From assembly GCF_000759835.1 (NCBI RefSeq), contig NZ_BBNB01000002.1:310001-374000 (forward strand): a stretch of 64,000 bases of DNA. Reading direction: 5' to 3'. Under the pieces are notes generated by a model, which saw only the letters and a list, made by a program, of their open reading frames with translations, searched no databases and was not told where the DNA came from. Source of the DNA: Citrobacter sedlakii NBRC 105722 (GTDB taxonomy: Bacteria; Pseudomonadota; Gammaproteobacteria; Enterobacterales; Enterobacteriaceae). Shown in pieces: positions 3,922-22,924 of the stretch (position 1 is the stretch's first letter; every line of letters begins with the position of its first letter). The position numbers and the translations under genes were made by a program.

Positions 3922-4801
3922 AACCACCGCCCTGCCGCGCACGCTGTTTGACGCTTACGCGCATCTCGCCTGGCGCGCCATGCTGACGGAAGTGAATCTG
4001 TCGCCGAAGCCAGGACTGGTCGATCGCCTGAACTGCGGCGCGCATAAAGATATGGCGCTCGCCGATTTTCATCGTAGCGCGCAGGCCATTCAGGGCTGGC
4101 TGCCGCGTTTTATCGAATACGGCGCCTGCTGCGCACAGCTACCGGCAGACTCGGTGTTAAGCGGGCTGCGTCCATTAGGTATGGCCTGCGAAGCGGATAT
4201 GTTCCGCGCCACCGCAGGGGTCAACACCCACAAGGGCAGCATTTTTTCGCTGGGTTTGCTGTGCGCCGCCATTGGCCGCTTACATCAGCTGCAGCGCCCC
4301 ATTACGCCTGAAACGATCTGCGCCGCCGCCGCGAGCTTTTGCCGGGGCCTGACGACACGCGAACTGCGCAATAACAATCACCAAAAAACCGCAGGCCAGC
4401 GTCTTTATTTCCAGTTGGGCTTAACCGGCGCGCGCGGCGAAGCCGAGGCGGGATACCCCTTAGTGATCCGCCACGCACTGCCGCATTACCGCACCCTGCT
4501 CGCCACGGGACGCGACCCGGAACTGGCGCTGCTCGACACGCTGCTTGTGCTGATCGCGCGCAATGGCGATACCAACGTCGCCTCGCGCGGCGGGGCGGCA
4601 GGTTTGCGTTGGATCCAGCAGCAGGCCACAGCCTTACTGCAAAGCGGCGGCATTCGTAGCGCCGACGATCTCGACCGGCTTCACCAGTTCGATCAGGCGT
4701 GTATTGAACGCAATCTCAGCCCCGGCGGTAGCGCCGATCTGCTGATCGTGACGTGGTTTTTAGCTCAACTTTCTCAGGTTAACCATTTAAACACTTATTA
4801 A
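3893..4801 (+). CDS. citG: 2-(5''-triphosphoribosyl)-3'-dephospho-CoA synthase
   Basis: Makes the citrate lyase prosthetic group precursor from ATP and dephospho-CoA, releasing adenine. Start ATG 3893 ([10 protein letters not shown]) gives 302 residues, close to the E. coli enzyme, with GGAGG at 3879-3883; the open frame reaches back to 3782 but that part is citX read out of frame. Family hallmarks: [10 protein letters not shown] near residue 40, TAGVNTHKG near 110, and [10 protein letters not shown] near 225. The N-terminal 20 residues are the only poorly conserved part. Confidence 0.94.
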
Positions 4802-4825
4802 AATTTCCTTTTCGGAGAAGCACTT

Positions 4826-6289
4826 ATGTCTTTATCTAAAGATAATATATGGAAATTATTGGCGCCTCTAATCGTCATGGGCGTCATGTTTCTTATCCCT
4901 GTTCCGGACGGTATGCCCCCTCAGGCATGGCACTACTTCGCCGTCTTCGTGGCGATGATTGTCGGGATGATCCTGGAGCCTATTCCGGCTACCGCGATCA
5001 GCTTTATTGCCGTCACCATCTGCGTCATTGGCAGCCATTACCTGCTGTTTGATGCCACAGAACTGGCCGATCCTTCCTTTAACGCCGGCAAACAGGCGCT
5101 GAAATGGGGGCTGGCGGGCTTCTCCAGTACCACCGTCTGGCTGGTGTTCGGCGCGTTTATCTTCGCGCTGGGCTACGAAGTGACCGGCCTCGGTCGCCGA
5201 ATCGCGCTGTTCCTGGTGAAGTTCATGGGTAAACGCACCCTGACTCTGGGCTATGCAATTGTCATCATCGACATCCTGCTGGCGCCGTTTACGCCGTCCA
5301 ATACCGCCCGTACCGGCGGCACCGTGTTCCCGGTGATCAAAAACCTGCCACCGCTGTTTAAATCGTTCCCGAACGATCCGTCAGCGCGTCGTATTGGCGG
5401 CTATTTGATGTGGATGATGGTGATCAGTACCAGCCTGAGCTCCTCTATGTTTGTCACCGGCGCGGCGCCAAACGTGCTGGGTCTGGAGTTCGTGAGTAAA
5501 ATCGCGGGCGTGCAGATCAGCTGGTTGCAGTGGTTCCTCGGCTTCCTGCCAGTCGGCATCATTTTACTGATCGTTGCGCCATGGCTCTCTTACGTTCTGT
5601 ACAAGCCGGAAGTGACGCACAGTGCGGAAGTTGCTGCCTGGGCGGGCGATGAACTGAAAACCATGGGCCGTCTGACCCGCAAAGAGTGGACGCTGATCGG
5701 CCTGGTTCTGCTGAGCTTAGGCCTGTGGGTGTTTGGCGGTGAACTGATTGACGCCACCGCGGTCGGTCTGCTGGCGGTATCGCTGATGCTGGCGCTGCAC
5801 GTAGTGCCGTGGAAAGATATCACCAAATATAATAGCGCGTGGAACACCCTGGTTAACCTCGCCACCCTGGTGGTGATGGCAAACGGCCTGACCCGCTCTG
5901 GCTTCATCGACTGGTTTGCTAACACCATGAGCGCGCATCTGGAAGGCTTCTCGCCTAATGCGACAGTCATTGTGCTGGTACTGGTGTTCTATTTTGCTCA
6001 CTACCTGTTTGCCAGCCTGTCGGCGCACACTGCCACCATGCTGCCCGTGATCCTGGCGATTGGTAAAGGCATTCCGGGCGTTCCTATGGAGCAGTTGTGT
6101 CTTCTGCTGGTGCTGTCCATCGGTATCATGGGCTGCCTGACCCCGTATGCTACGGGCCCTGGCGTCATCATCTACGGCTGTGGCTACGTGAAATCTAAAG
6201 ATTACTGGCGTCTTGGCGCAATCTTCGGGGTGATTTACATCGCGATGCTGCTGCTGGTTGGCTGGCCGATACTGGCTATGTGGAACTGA
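4826..6289 (+). CDS. citT: citrate:succinate antiporter
   Basis: 487 residues, an inner-membrane DASS-family transporter with about a dozen hydrophobic segments. It brings citrate in against the succinate that citrate fermentation produces, so it supplies the lyase encoded upstream. The conserved SNTARTGGT segment (near residue 157) and the matching C-terminal YATGPGVIIYG segment are the substrate-binding repeats of this family. Start has TTCGGAGAAGC ahead (GGAG at 4814-4817). Last gene of the operon, followed by a terminator. Confidence 0.96.
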   Translation: MSLSKDNIWKLLAPLIVMGVMFLIPVPDGMPPQAWHYFAVFVAMIVGMILEPIPATAISFIAVTICVIGSHYLLFDATELADPSFNAGKQALKWGLAGFSSTTVWLVFGAFIFALGYEVTGLGRRIALFLVKFMGKRTLTLGYAIVIIDILLAPFTPSNTARTGGTVFPVIKNLPPLFKSFPNDPSARRIGGYLMWMMVISTSLSSSMFVTGAAPNVLGLEFVSKIAGVQISWLQWFLGFLPVGIILLIVAPWLSYVLYKPEVTHSAEVAAWAGDELKTMGRLTRKEWTLIGLVLLSLGLWVFGGELIDATAVGLLAVSLMLALHVVPWKDITKYNSAWNTLVNLATLVVMANGLTRSGFIDWFANTMSAHLEGFSPNATVIVLVLVFYFAHYLFASLSAHTATMLPVILAIGKGIPGVPMEQLCLLLVLSIGIMGCLTPYATGPGVIIYGCGYVKSKDYWRLGAIFGVIYIAMLLLVGWPILAMWN

Positions 6290-16680: not shown

Positions 16681-16749
16681 CTGATGCTCAGCATCCTACA
16701 AGGCGCAGGAAGTCACTGCCCCAGCCACAGAAATCAGGATGAGCATCAG
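16681..16749. repeat. 10-bp inverted repeat between ybdM and ybdD
   Basis: CTGATGCTCA (16681-16690) is perfectly complementary to TGAGCATCAG (16740-16749), 49 bases apart. It brackets the convergent ends of ybdM and ybdD and includes the ybdD stop. Possibly a shared transcript end; no T run. Confidence 0.4.
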
Positions 16750-16943
16750 CAGCAGCGCGCGCCGCCCTTCCCGCCGTATCGCGCATCCTGACGCTCGCGG
16801 AAAAACTCTTCATAGGTCATCGGCGTCTGCTCAGGATGCGTCACCCGCATATGCTCAACATAGTTGTCATAATCCGGTACGCCAATCATCAGCTTCGCCG
16901 CCTGGCCCAGATATTTACCGGCTTTCGAAAGCGTATCAAACAT
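16746..16943 (-). CDS. ybdD: small conserved protein, CstA partner (YbdD/YjiX family)
   Basis: 65 residues from ATG 16943 ([10 protein letters not shown]); another ATG lies one codon upstream. DUF466 family, always encoded beside CstA-type transporters (YjiX beside BtsT/YjiY). The tail [11 protein letters not shown] ends in a Cys-Cys pair. It lies 55 bp downstream of cstA on the same strand, separated by a hairpin. The role is unproven; association with the transporter is inferred from constant neighbourhood. Confidence 0.93.
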
Positions 16944-16962
16944 CATTCCCCCTTAACAGAAA

Positions 16963-16998: not shown

Positions 16999-19104
16999 TC
17001 AGTGCGCGCCTTTCGCCTGCGCGACGATCTCATCCACGTTTTCCGGCATCGGCTCGTACGGCGTTTCTTTCGCCGTCGGCGTGTCCACCTTCAGCGCCGC
17101 CAGCGCGGTCTTGATGGAGAACAGCGCCAGCACCACAACCACCACCATAAAGAAGATCGTCAACCCGGCATCCAGACGGTTATTAAATACCAACTGCGCC
17201 AGCTGCGATTCGGTGTACTGCGCCGGAATATTGCCGCTGTCGATCATCGCCTGGAACTTATTGGCGATCGCCAGGAAGCCCACTTTCGCATCCGGACTGA
17301 AGGCTTTCTGCCAGCCGGCGGTCAGAGTACAAATCAGCAGCCACGCGGTAGGCACCAGCGCCACCCATGCATAACGCTGGCGCTTCATCTTGAACAACAC
17401 CACCGCACAAAGCATCAGCGCCATGCCCGCCAGCATCTGGTTGGCGATACCAAATAGCGGCCACAGGGTGTTAATGCCACCGAGCGGGTCGACGACCCCC
17501 TGATGCAGGAAGTAACCCCAGGCCAGCACGCACAGCGCCGTCGCCAGCAGGTTAGCGGGCAGCGAATCGGTACGTTTCAGCCCCGGCGAGATCACGCCCA
17601 GCAGATCCTGCAACATAAAGCGTGCAGCGCGCGTCCCGGCGTCCACCGCGGTGAGAATAAACAGCGCTTCAAACAGAATCGCGAAGTGATACCAGAAGGC
17701 GACATCCATCATCCCGCCCAGCGCACCGTGGAGAATGTACGCCATCCCCACCGCCAGCGTCGGGGCGCCGCCCGCACGGGAAATGATCGACTGCTCGCCG
17801 ACCTCGTTCGCGATCTGGTTCAGCGTATCCGGCGTAATCACAAAGCCCCAACTACTGACCACCTGCGCGGCAGACGCTACCACGTCCGTAGTTCCGGCTG
17901 GAGCCAGAACCGCCATCGGGCTGTTCATTGCGAAGTAGACGCCCGGATCGATGATGCAGGCGGAAACCAGCGCCATGATGGCCACAAAGGATTCCATCAG
18001 CATCCCACCATAGCCGATAAAGCAGGCCTGTCCTTCATTCGCCAACATCTTCGGCGTGGTGCCCGAGGAGATCAGCGCATGGAACCCGGATACCGCGCCG
18101 CAGGCAATGGTAATAAACAGGAACGGGAACAGGTTACCGGTCCAGACTGGCCCCGTACCGTCGACAAATTTGGTCAGCGCAGGCATGGTCAGGGTTGGGC
18201 GCATGATCAAAATCCCTACCGCCAGGCCAACAATGGTGCCGATCTTCAGGAAGGTGGAGAGATAATCACGCGGCGCCAGCAGCAGCCACACCGGCAGCAC
18301 CGCCGCCACGAAGCCGTACCCCACCAGCATCCAGGTCAACTGTACGCCGCTAAAGTCAAAGTATGGCGCCCAGGTTGGGCTTTCCGCGACCCAGCCGCCG
18401 GAGATAATGGCAAACACCAGGAATACCAGACCGATCACCGACACTTCGCCAATGCGTCCCGGACGGAGATAGCGCAGATAAATCCCCATGAAGATAGCCA
18501 GCGGAATGGTGAACGCCACGGTATACGTCCCCCACGGGCTGTGAGTCAGCGCTTTCACCACAATCATCGCCAGCACCGCGAGGATGATCACCATGATCAT
18601 AAAACAGGCCACCAGCGCAATGACCCCGGCGGTCGGCCCCATCTCCTCTTTCACCAGTTCGCCGAGCGAACGCCCGTCGCGACGGGTCGAGACAAACAGC
18701 ACCATAAAGTCCTGCACCGCCCCGGCGAGCACCACCCCGGCCAGCAGCCAGATCATTCCCGGTAGATAACCCATCTGCGCCGCCAGCACCGGCCCCACCA
18801 GCGGCCCTGCCCCGGCAATCGCCGCAAAATGGTGACCGAACAGCACTTTTTTGTCGGTCGGCACATAGTCCAGCCCGTCGTTATGACGCACGGCGGGCGT
18901 CATGCGCGTCGGGTCAACCGCCAGCACATTTTTGGCAATGTACAGGCCGTAAAAACGGTAGGCAATGAGATAGACGCAGACCGACGCCACCACGATCCAT
19001 AGCGCGTTGATCTGTTCCCCACGGTTTAATGCAATGTAGCCCAGAGCGAACGCCCCCATAACCGAGAGCACTGTCCAGACGAGGTATTTCCCTGATTTAT
19101 TCAT
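16999..19104 (-). CDS. cstA: carbon starvation protein A, peptide/pyruvate transporter
   Basis: 701 residues, as in E. coli, with about 16-18 hydrophobic segments. Inner-membrane transporter induced at carbon starvation, implicated in peptide uptake and, more recently, pyruvate uptake. Conserved segments: HHFAAIAGAGPLVGPVLAAQMGY near residue 92 and SGTTPKMLANEG near 345. The leader has no classic ribosome site beyond GGA motifs before the start, which fits the known CsrA repression of E. coli cstA. Confidence 0.96.
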   Translation of the reverse strand: MNKSGKYLVWTVLSVMGAFALGYIALNRGEQINALWIVVASVCVYLIAYRFYGLYIAKNVLAVDPTRMTPAVRHNDGLDYVPTDKKVLFGHHFAAIAGAGPLVGPVLAAQMGYLPGMIWLLAGVVLAGAVQDFMVLFVSTRRDGRSLGELVKEEMGPTAGVIALVACFMIMVIILAVLAMIVVKALTHSPWGTYTVAFTIPLAIFMGIYLRYLRPGRIGEVSVIGLVFLVFAIISGGWVAESPTWAPYFDFSGVQLTWMLVGYGFVAAVLPVWLLLAPRDYLSTFLKIGTIVGLAVGILIMRPTLTMPALTKFVDGTGPVWTGNLFPFLFITIACGAVSGFHALISSGTTPKMLANEGQACFIGYGGMLMESFVAIMALVSACIIDPGVYFAMNSPMAVLAPAGTTDVVASAAQVVSSWGFVITPDTLNQIANEVGEQSIISRAGGAPTLAVGMAYILHGALGGMMDVAFWYHFAILFEALFILTAVDAGTRAARFMLQDLLGVISPGLKRTDSLPANLLATALCVLAWGYFLHQGVVDPLGGINTLWPLFGIANQMLAGMALMLCAVVLFKMKRQRYAWVALVPTAWLLICTLTAGWQKAFSPDAKVGFLAIANKFQAMIDSGNIPAQYTESQLAQLVFNNRLDAGLTIFFMVVVVVLALFSIKTALAALKVDTPTAKETPYEPMPENVDEIVAQAKGAH

Positions 19105-19405
19105 GGTTGTTATCCGTTTGCATGTTCCAGAGAAGTGAGATGTTACATTTTGTTTCTATAACATCTTTTTCAGTTTTAACAACCTGACAACCTAATAAAC
19201 CTGAACCATCACCTGATATTTACATTGCATTGTTAAGCGGATCACTATCCGCAGGAAAACCGCACAAAATGTGAAACTTTTTTTACAGCTCACAATTTTT
19301 GTTTCCTCACCGTTGTAGCCGCCAATGAAATGATTTGAATCATCTTTTTAATTGCTTACATCGTCAGAATAAGTGAGCTAAACGCATATCTACAAGGAGA
19401 AGGAA
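19105..19405. promoter_or_regulatory. cstA / yjiH-like divergent control region
   Basis: Next to the cstA start (19104) the minus strand has two GGA motifs (19125-19127 and 19113-19115); the nearer overlaps the ribosome site, as expected for CsrA binding. A 7-bp stem 19139-19145 / 19159-19165 lies in the leader. Further right, TGTGA (19270-19274) and TCACA (19290-19294) form an inverted pair 15 bases apart: two CRP half sites with wrong spacing for one standard dimer. The plus-strand gene has AAGGAGAAGGAA at its start. Confidence 0.5.
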
Positions 19406-20125
19406 ATGAGTAGTACAGAGGTAAAGGAACAAAGAACAGGACCCGGCGCGTATTTCGCCCTGGCGTTTGCCGCCGTCTTTTTTTCCGGGTTATTGGGTGG
19501 AAAAGAGTGGTATGGGGTCTTTGACTTCACCACGCTCAACGGCGCGTTCGGACGCGTCGTGAGCGGCGTGAGTCAGCAAGGCGACGCGATCACCACCACC
19601 ACCAGCGCCTTTCGCGGCGTGGGGGGGAACGGCGCGATGGACGGCTTTTTATTCGCATTGGGCCTCATTCCGGCGGTGATGTTCGCCCTCGGCATGATCA
19701 ACGTACTGGAGCATTATGGCGCGTTGCGCGCCGCGCGCCGCCTGTTAACGCCCTTGCTGCGCCCGCTGCTGGGGATCCCTGGCAACACCGGACTGGCGAT
19801 GATCGGCAGCCTGCAAAGCACTGACGTAGGAGCTTCACTGACCCGCAATTTGTCCGATGAAGGTCAGATTACGGAAAAAGAGAAAGATATCTTCGCGATG
19901 TTCCAGTTTTCCGCCGGCGCAATGATCACCAACTTCTTCTCCTCCGGCGCGATCCTGTTCACGCTGATGGCGATGGACGGTACGCCCGCGGTCCCAACGT
20001 CTATCGGCGTTTGCATCATGGTGATGTTCGTGATGAAAATTTTCGGCGCCAACCTGATGCGCCTGATCCTGACGTTCAGCGGGAAAAAAGCCCCTGCCGT
20101 CACCGCGGAAAAAGGAGAAGCCTGA
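19406..20125 (+). CDS. YjiH-like inner-membrane protein, nucleoside-recognition (Gate) domain
   Basis: 239 residues with about five to six hydrophobic segments. The middle part (NTGLAMIGSLQSTDVGASLTRNLSDEGQITEKEKDI around residues 131-165) is typical of the nucleoside-recognition/Gate domain seen in E. coli YjiH and in SpmA. It ends in TGATG shared with the next gene, a YjiG-like protein. In E. coli the yjiH-yjiG pair stands beside iadA (isoaspartyl dipeptidase); here the pair stands beside an M20 peptidase. Substrate unknown. No E. coli gene at this locus. Confidence 0.8.
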   Translation: MSSTEVKEQRTGPGAYFALAFAAVFFSGLLGGKEWYGVFDFTTLNGAFGRVVSGVSQQGDAITTTTSAFRGVGGNGAMDGFLFALGLIPAVMFALGMINVLEHYGALRAARRLLTPLLRPLLGIPGNTGLAMIGSLQSTDVGASLTRNLSDEGQITEKEKDIFAMFQFSAGAMITNFFSSGAILFTLMAMDGTPAVPTSIGVCIMVMFVMKIFGANLMRLILTFSGKKAPAVTAEKGEA

Positions 20126-20589
20126 TGAGCGCCCAAAATGCTAAACCGGTTATTACCGATGTCTTCGTTGAAGGCGCGCGTAAAGGCTGGAACATCGCCA
20201 CCAGCAGCACATTGCCCAATGTCGTGATGGCCTTCATTATCATCAAGGCGCTGGAGATCACCGGCGCGCTGAAAGGCATGGGCATGGTCTTCGCCCCGCT
20301 GATGGGGCTGTTTGGTTTACCCGGCGAAGCCGCCGCTGTGCTGATCGGCGGCTGGATGTCGATGGGCGGCGGCATTGGCGTCGCTATCGGTTTGTTCGAT
20401 AAGGGGATCATCAGCGGCGAACATCTGGCGATCCTCGCTCCGGCTATCTATCTGATGGGCTCGCAGGTGCAATATCTGGGCCGTATCCTCGGGGTGATTG
20501 GCACCCAGGCCAAACGCATTCCGCTGATGATCGTCATTTCGATCGTCAACGCCTTTATCGCGATGCTGCTGATGCGCATCATTCTCTGA
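20125..20589 (+). CDS. YjiG-like inner-membrane protein, SpmB-type
   Basis: 154 residues from ATG 20125, overlapping the previous stop by one base (TGATG), with AAAGGAGAAG upstream. Closely resembles E. coli YjiG: the N terminus VEGARKGWNIATSSTLPNVV, LFGLPGEAAAVLIGGWMSMGGG and the LAPAIYLMGSQVQYLGR segment are family hallmarks. Four hydrophobic helices. Works presumably as a complex with the YjiH-like partner; such two-part Gate proteins resemble SpmA/SpmB of sporulating bacteria. Transport or other activity is unproven. Confidence 0.82.
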   Translation: MSAQNAKPVITDVFVEGARKGWNIATSSTLPNVVMAFIIIKALEITGALKGMGMVFAPLMGLFGLPGEAAAVLIGGWMSMGGGIGVAIGLFDKGIISGEHLAILAPAIYLMGSQVQYLGRILGVIGTQAKRIPLMIVISIVNAFIAMLLMRIIL

Positions 20590-20603
20590 ATTAAGGACGA
20601 TGT

Positions 20604-21716
20604 ATGGATCTTGAAACGTATTTTGCCGAACTGGAAACCCTGGTCAACGTGGACTGCGGCACCGCCACCCTTGAAGGTGTCGCGCAGGTTGCCGGCATCA
20701 TCCGCCAGCTCTGGCTGCAGGAGGGCTGGCACGTCGAGTCCGTCGATCTGGGCGACAAGGTCGGTCCCGGCCTGTTTGTCACCAATAAACCGGGCGCCGA
20801 AAAATTCGACGTGCTGATGGTCGGGCATATGGACACCGTTTTCCCGGCTGGCACCGTGGCCGAACGCCCGATGAGCCGCGATGAAAACCGACTGTATGGT
20901 CCTGGCGTCTCTGACATGAAAAGCGGCCTGCTGAACATCCTCTGGGCAATGCGCACGCTGGCGCCGGAACATCGCGAACGCCTGAGCATCGCGGTCGCCA
21001 TGAATCCCGATGAAGAAACCGGCAGCGTCTATTCTCACGAATGGATTGGCGAACTGGCGAAAAAATCACGCTGCGTGCTGGTCTGCGAAGCAGCGCGCGC
21101 CGACGGCTCGCTGGTGAAGGCGCGTAAGGGAATGGCAGGTTATCACCTGACCTTCACCGGCGTTGCCGCCCATGCAGGTAACGAACCGGAAAAAGGACGC
21201 TCGGCGATTACCGCTCTGGCGAACAGTATTGTCGCGATCAATGCCCTCGCCGACAGCCGCGCCGGAACGACGCTTAACGTAGGGGTCATTCGCGGCGGCA
21301 GCGCTGCTAACGTGGTGCCGGACAGCGCCTTTGCCGAACTCGACGTACGCTTCTGGCAAAACGACGAAGATGCCCGCGTCCATCAGGCGTTGCAGGAGAT
21401 GTGCGAGCGCGGCTTCCTTGACGGAGTCACCACCACGCTCGTTCAGGTCAATCACAAACCGGCGATGGCGGCAAGTGAAGCGACGGGCGAGCTGATGGCC
21501 CTCGTGGAGCAGGCGGGTAAAGAAGAAGGTATTGCGATTACCTGGCAGGCCGTCGGTGGAGGCAGCGACGCCAACCATACCGCCGCGTTAGGCATTCCGA
21601 CGCTGGACGGTCTTGGTCCGGTCGGGGCGGGTTTCCACAGCCCGGCAGAATGGCTGGATATCGCCTCGATCGCGCCGCGGATCCGCTTATTACGCCGCAT
21701 CGTGTCGCAGTTGTAA
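20604..21716 (+). CDS. M20-family metallopeptidase (carboxypeptidase G2-like)
   Basis: 370 residues, cytoplasmic, no signal peptide. All di-zinc ligands are visible: His75 and Asp77 in GHMDTVF, Asp104 in GPGVSDMKSG, Glu137/Glu138 in NPDEETGS, Glu162 in CEAARADGS and His345 near the end in GAGFHSP. The lid domain lies between about 180 and 290. The closest functional class is glutamate carboxypeptidase/CPG2, which cleaves C-terminal Glu from peptides or folates; the real substrate is unknown. Third gene of the cassette, starting 14 bp after the YjiG-like gene with AAGGACG as ribosome site. Confidence 0.87.
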   Translation: MDLETYFAELETLVNVDCGTATLEGVAQVAGIIRQLWLQEGWHVESVDLGDKVGPGLFVTNKPGAEKFDVLMVGHMDTVFPAGTVAERPMSRDENRLYGPGVSDMKSGLLNILWAMRTLAPEHRERLSIAVAMNPDEETGSVYSHEWIGELAKKSRCVLVCEAARADGSLVKARKGMAGYHLTFTGVAAHAGNEPEKGRSAITALANSIVAINALADSRAGTTLNVGVIRGGSAANVVPDSAFAELDVRFWQNDEDARVHQALQEMCERGFLDGVTTTLVQVNHKPAMAASEATGELMALVEQAGKEEGIAITWQAVGGGSDANHTAALGIPTLDGLGPVGAGFHSPAEWLDIASIAPRIRLLRRIVSQL

Positions 21717-21722
21717 GCGTCA

Positions 21723-21750
21723 ACCCCTCTCTGCACAGGGAGGGGTATTT
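21723..21750. terminator. terminator between the M20 gene and entH
   Basis: 9-bp stem 21723-21731 with 21738-21746 (one mismatch), loop TGCACA, followed by ATTTA on the plus strand. Convergent gene ends on both sides. Confidence 0.6.
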
Positions 21751-21753
21751 ACC

Positions 21754-22924
<1,171 letters not shown>

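Follow-up and report, generated by a model that had tools for sequence, protein, structure and literature searches.

The window analysed is a stretch of 64,000 nucleotides from the genome of Citrobacter sedlakii NBRC 105722. In it, yjiH (19406-20125, + strand), which encodes a Gate-domain inner-membrane protein of 239 aa, overlaps by 1 bp the gene for a second Gate-domain inner-membrane protein of 154 aa, yjiG (20125-20589, + strand). After a gap of 14 bp, yjiG is followed by a gene for a 370 aa M20 metallopeptidase resembling carboxypeptidase G2 (CPG2) (20604-21716, + strand). This tight three-gene unit on the + strand is divergent from cstA (16999-19104, - strand; 1573.7 bits for NF011590, 'pyruvate/proton symporter CstA', cut-off 1188) and ybdD (16746-16946, - strand), and convergent with entH (21754-22167, - strand; 308.7 bits for NF007607, cut-off 237), with which the enterobactin operon ends. 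This arrangement suggests that the unit was inserted between cstA and the enterobactin genes. The cstA-entH interval is the insertion site, with entH as its other border; cstA is a neighbour that lies outside the module, and ybdD is a neighbour that belongs with cstA. An earlier, sequence-only reading of the window had placed a yjiH/yjiG-like pair and an M20 peptidase beside cstA and ybdD, and had described ybdD as a yjiX paralogue. Its coordinates were exact, the family assignments held up in profile searches, and YbdD falls in PF04328, which is the family of YjiX.

The divergent cstA/yjiH intergenic region (19105-19405, 301 bp, no strand assigned) includes, on direct reading, the palindrome ATGATTTGAATCAT (19330-19343, likewise without strand) upstream of yjiH, which may be an operator. 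At the other end of the unit, a terminator-like hairpin of 10 pairs (21723-21746, + strand) starts 7 bp after the M20 stop codon. It comes from a pattern scan that often hits by chance (5 hits against 3.0 expected), and is likely to be the end of the operon. No strong CRP site upstream of yjiH could be assigned to yjiH. CRP-like scores in the upstream regions of M20-type loci were slightly above those of shuffled sequences (7.7 versus 6.8 of 10); as the M20-type loci are related and the site on the cstA side is shared, we make no claim of CRP control of yjiH.

YjiH and YjiG are currently annotated as uncharacterised or 'nucleoside recognition' proteins. Both match the Pfam Gate domain (PF07670; 37.7 bits for YjiH and 40.2 bits for YjiG, cut-off 29.6), and YjiG is a member of the YjiG family NF007811/PRK10519 (226.5 bits, curated cut-off 111). 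The YjiH and YjiG profiles were aligned by hhalign over 98 columns (probability 96, E-value 2e-9), and are thus two homologous halves, as expected of a two-subunit transporter. The predicted model of YjiG is an all-helical bundle (pLDDT 83), and that of YjiH is poor (pLDDT 64). Comparison of the YjiG model with the concentrative nucleoside transporter CNTnw gave a Z score of 5.6 and an rmsd of 5.2 for 143 aligned residues, which is within the background for helical proteins, and no significant fold match was found with the YjiG model using Foldseek (E-value 3.8). YjiH has a weak match to the YlbJ model (27.6 bits, cut-off 304.65).

The product of the third gene matches Peptidase_M20 (94.1 bits, Pfam) and M20_dimer and, having the catalytic and dimerisation domains and the metal ligands, is an M20 metallopeptidase. 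As it is not an isoaspartyl dipeptidase, the window unit is not a yjiHG-iadA operon. The closest solved structure is CPG2 (1cg2, E-value 2e-43), and H75, D104, E137, E138, E162 and H345 align with the metal-binding residues and the catalytic Glu of CPG2. Five of these residues are identical in 99/99 relatives, and H345 is identical in all 97 that cover that position. The positions aligned with CPG2 H229, N275 and R288 are also common to the two enzymes and kept in the M20 relatives. The window enzyme differs from CPG2 at the positions aligned with K208 (mostly Ser in this group) and R324 (Lys or Thr), and its score with PRK06133, the glutamate carboxypeptidase model of CPG2 type, is below the curated cut-off (276.6 bits, cut-off 349). 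As the active-site residues are conserved, it is probably an active enzyme whose substrate is an acylated amino acid or dipeptide, but glutamate release should not be assumed. It further differs from CPG2 in that its N-terminus, MDLETYFAELETLVNVDCG, contains no evident signal peptide, and it is presumably cytoplasmic for that reason. Direct reading also found no evident signal peptide at the start of the M20, IadA and M20D enzymes alike.

The gene order in E. coli K-12 is yjiH-yjiG-iadA, as the sequence-only reading had stated. The order, both membrane protein families and the last position of the hydrolase gene are common to this operon and the window unit, whereas the third enzyme is IadA in E. 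coli and an unrelated M20 peptidase in the window. A search of the whole C. sedlakii genome for Gate domains found a second split pair, on contig C19, with the order yjiH, yjiG, iadA (TIGR01975, 525.6 bits, cut-off 331.25). It stands between perM and bcp-gcvR-dapA, and the 11 kb read around it contain no gene of CstA type. The window YjiG and the YjiG of this IadA-type copy share 49 % identity. One organism keeps two versions of yjiHG, each with its own enzyme. Among 5,426 complete E. coli genomes, a yjiHG-iadA match was found in 5,341 and a complete M20 cassette in none.

The family was sampled by searching 198 genomes for YjiG. This yielded 57 further intact loci which, with the two from the genome of the window, make 59; weak matches and frame-broken or fragmentary copies were left out of this count. 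A metallohydrolase gene is next, on the same strand, in 59/59. The partners are a CPG2-like M20 peptidase (29 loci), IadA (16 loci) or an M20D amidohydrolase (TIGR01891, 14 loci). A LysR regulator gene diverges from many of the M20D-type loci, and at two of them a second M20 gene lies upstream. A few yjiHG-hydrolase copies are on plasmids. The linkage is two-way. All 30 M20 relatives with at least 61 % identity and all 17 IadA relatives with at least 63 % identity adjoin yjiG, which is a remnant in one case of each; 13 IadA relatives at 43-52 % identity are not beside yjiG, and neither is one M20 relative at 53 %. The 59 loci represent 43 distinct flanking-gene pairs (M20, 21; IadA, 9; M20D, 13), so the linkage is more than inherited synteny. 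In a separate collection of 80 named relatives, which overlaps the family sample, the enzyme gene is directly downstream in 74; in one an M20D gene is directly upstream, and in one the enzyme gene comes after a second yjiHG pair.

Some loci in this material are decayed. In one genome (G146, locus L202:2064-3126), a deletion has taken yjiG, so that the start of yjiH now abuts the end of the M20 gene, and an intact M20D-type copy is found elsewhere in the genome. At two other loci, an intact M20 gene (L200:2575-3925) and an intact iadA (L201:2900-4276) each lie beside a decayed yjiG, and yjiH is gone.

A wider check was made with the YjiH profile in 296 genomes of the order, reading only regions not seen before. 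Among the 33 split loci whose neighbourhood was complete, of which one lies within the same family, 27 have a hydrolase gene next (M20 in 17 and M20D in 10). Chance falls far short of explaining the linkage between Gate pair and peptidase. The sequence-only reading had named YjiHG homologues mostly lacking peptidases as the outcome that would tell against it; the opposite was found in the family and across the order (59/59 and 27/33), and the tie is far stronger than that reading could show. The six loci without a hydrolase gene are in genus g158, a Vibrio-like group (four), family f103 (one) and family f3 (one). In a separate earlier reading, a hydrolase gene was present in 3/7 g158 loci and in one f3 locus.

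Coverage of other phyla comprises two named loci. A Bacillota contig (L173:333-5490) carries an M81 (MlrC-like) gene, two tandem yjiHG pairs and then an M20D gene, and M81 is a possible fourth type of partner enzyme. Two different tandem yjiHG pairs, one M20-type-like and one M20D-type-like, were also seen in Sutterellaceae (L171:5218-9368 and L170:185-3336).

In a tree of 92 YjiG proteins, where the most distant members are on long branches and their placement is unsure, the partner labels need 7 changes, compared with a mean of 42 when the labels were shuffled. YjiG proteins with different types of partner enzyme occupy different parts of the tree. M20 and IadA are unrelated folds in Pfam, which means that the enzyme has been replaced while the yjiHG pair was retained. 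The IadA-type YjiG clade is sister to a Bacillota YjiG having an M20D partner, and this also implies non-homologous replacement of the enzyme.

The linkage with several unrelated peptidases suggests that YjiHG moves their substrates or products. The best explanation, which we consider reasonably probable, is that YjiH and YjiG are homologous half-subunits that would form one secondary transporter in the inner membrane. This transporter would import a small amide-linked substrate, such as an unusual dipeptide, an isopeptide or an N-acyl amino acid, and the product of the adjoining hydrolase gene would cleave it in the cytoplasm to usable amino acids. The transporter would be kept and the hydrolase exchanged, with a CPG2-like M20 in the window, IadA in E. 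coli and in the C19 copy, and M20D in many others. For E. coli, a published list gives yjiHG-iadA as a single transcription unit activated by Crl, which assists sigma-S (PMC6469107), and this fits a stationary-phase role.

Some observations count against the transporter model. The Vibrio yjiHG without a hydrolase gene form a single clade in the YjiG tree, and no close M20 was found elsewhere in the genome in the four hydrolase-less Vibrio searched. This looks like loss of the enzyme, and also means that yjiHG has some use without a hydrolase. In two genomes, it is the hydrolase that outlives the yjiHG pair. Fused YjiHG-like proteins (approximately 380-450 residues) are found beside other genes (menB-like, Memo-like) without peptidases, and mark the limit of the linkage rule. 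Among these, a fused protein of approximately 380 aa lies beside menB-like and acyl-CoA ligase-like genes, with no peptidase gene, at four loci (L225-L228, near 4480-6110), and fused Gate proteins adjoin the gene for a Memo-like protein at two (L187:4968-7219 and L189:2617-5471).

The main rival is transport in the opposite direction, with YjiHG exporting the amino acids or dipeptides freed by the hydrolase and so easing their build-up during the turnover of damaged proteins. The linkage evidence serves export as well as import. Moreover, the substrates of IadA are dipeptides that arise inside the cell from isoaspartyl-damaged proteins, and the phenotypes of iadA deletion arise without added dipeptide (PMC10857468). 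However, a salvage enzyme normally keeps its product for reuse, and neither YjiH nor YjiG matched any exporter-family profile in the Pfam and curated profile searches. We judge export to be unlikely.

YjiHG might instead be a membrane partner that moves no solute, either an ion channel or a scaffold holding the hydrolase at the membrane. Gate domains are also present in the iron transporter FeoB, no substrate of YjiHG is known, and the related fused Gate proteins adjoin Memo-like and other genes. However, the pair is shared by enzymes of unrelated folds (M20 and the amidohydrolase TIM barrel), and a shared class of substrate explains this more easily than shared docking would, making a channel or scaffold rather improbable.

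The sequence-only reading had proposed a recurring module of four parts, in which CstA, YbdD/YjiX, the Gate pair and the peptidase jointly scavenge peptides, and had described E. coli yjiHG as close to btsT. cstA does adjoin the unit in the window and in 24/80 loci of the named relatives, a collection weighted to the closest ones; where the flank extends far enough to show it, the site is always cstA-entH. Poorer growth of cstA mutants on peptides has also been reported (PMC7730263), leaving a possible indirect link between CstA and yjiHG. However, in the family sample cstA adjoins 7/29 M20-type loci, all at the single orthologous cstA-entH site, and 0/16 IadA-type and 0/14 M20D-type loci; it adjoins none of the loci in the order-wide check. 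In E. coli K-12, yjiH ends at 4,560,680 and btsT begins at 4,589,129, so 28.4 kb, with more than 20 genes, separate the two. Adjacency to cstA is therefore bound to one site and does not recur. CstA and BtsT are, furthermore, importers of pyruvate (PMC5847655, PMC7730263). The locus counts thus rule out CstA/BtsT linkage as a recurring feature of yjiHG and correct the idea of a CstA-linked module, which we now regard as very improbable. The position of cstA beside yjiHG-M20 is a local coincidence, confined to one site in some Enterobacteriaceae. The starvation theme of the sequence-only reading retains some support from the Crl regulation of E. coli yjiHG-iadA (PMC6469107). At two loci from Intestinirhabdus alba (L045 and L124), the cassette adjoins entH, but the site has neither cstA nor ybdD. 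A contig titled Chryseobacterium (L117) carries enterobacterial cstA-yjiHG-M20-ent genes, and is probably contamination or mislabelled.

That yjiHG and the hydrolase gene simply travel as one mobile cassette and have no function in common, as the many different genomic contexts and the few plasmid copies might indicate, is hardly credible when three enzyme types follow one pair, each with its own YjiG clade, and the association persists outside the family.

Operons of a transporter and a hydrolase are already known as a kind, as is the E. coli yjiHG-iadA gene order. The gene for AbgT, the p-aminobenzoyl-glutamate transporter, is beside the genes for the cytoplasmic M20 amidohydrolases AbgA and AbgB. 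This is alike in principle to yjiHG-M20, with a dedicated transporter gene beside M20 genes, but AbgT is from an unrelated transporter family, and the putative transporter of the window is a split Gate-domain pair. In spore formers, a pair of membrane proteins, SpmA and SpmB, is encoded downstream of the carboxypeptidase gene dacB (PMC13188902), and their biochemical activity is given as unknown (PMC3533761). Here too a membrane pair is next to a peptidase gene, and the likeness is one of gene arrangement; dacB precedes spmA-spmB, whereas the hydrolase gene follows yjiHG. DacB acts outside the cytoplasm. A search of the open-access literature found no paper that linked YjiHG generally to several unrelated hydrolases or that tested transport by YjiHG.

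More tentatively, split Gate pairs of the YjiH/YjiG type might be a general class of transporters for amide-linked metabolites, with unrelated cytoplasmic hydrolases (IadA, both kinds of M20 and perhaps M81) swapped in to match specificity, and this principle of placing a peptidase next to Gate proteins may shed light on SpmA-SpmB of spores; we hold this broader proposal to be possible, if somewhat doubtful. The partner enzymes provide a concrete substrate hypothesis that is cheap to examine, namely isoaspartyl dipeptides for E. coli YjiHG-IadA and, for pairs with an M20 or M20D enzyme, N-acyl or acidic dipeptides. The function of the uncharacterised YjiHG family, and possibly that of the Gate pairs of sporulation, thereby becomes directly testable.
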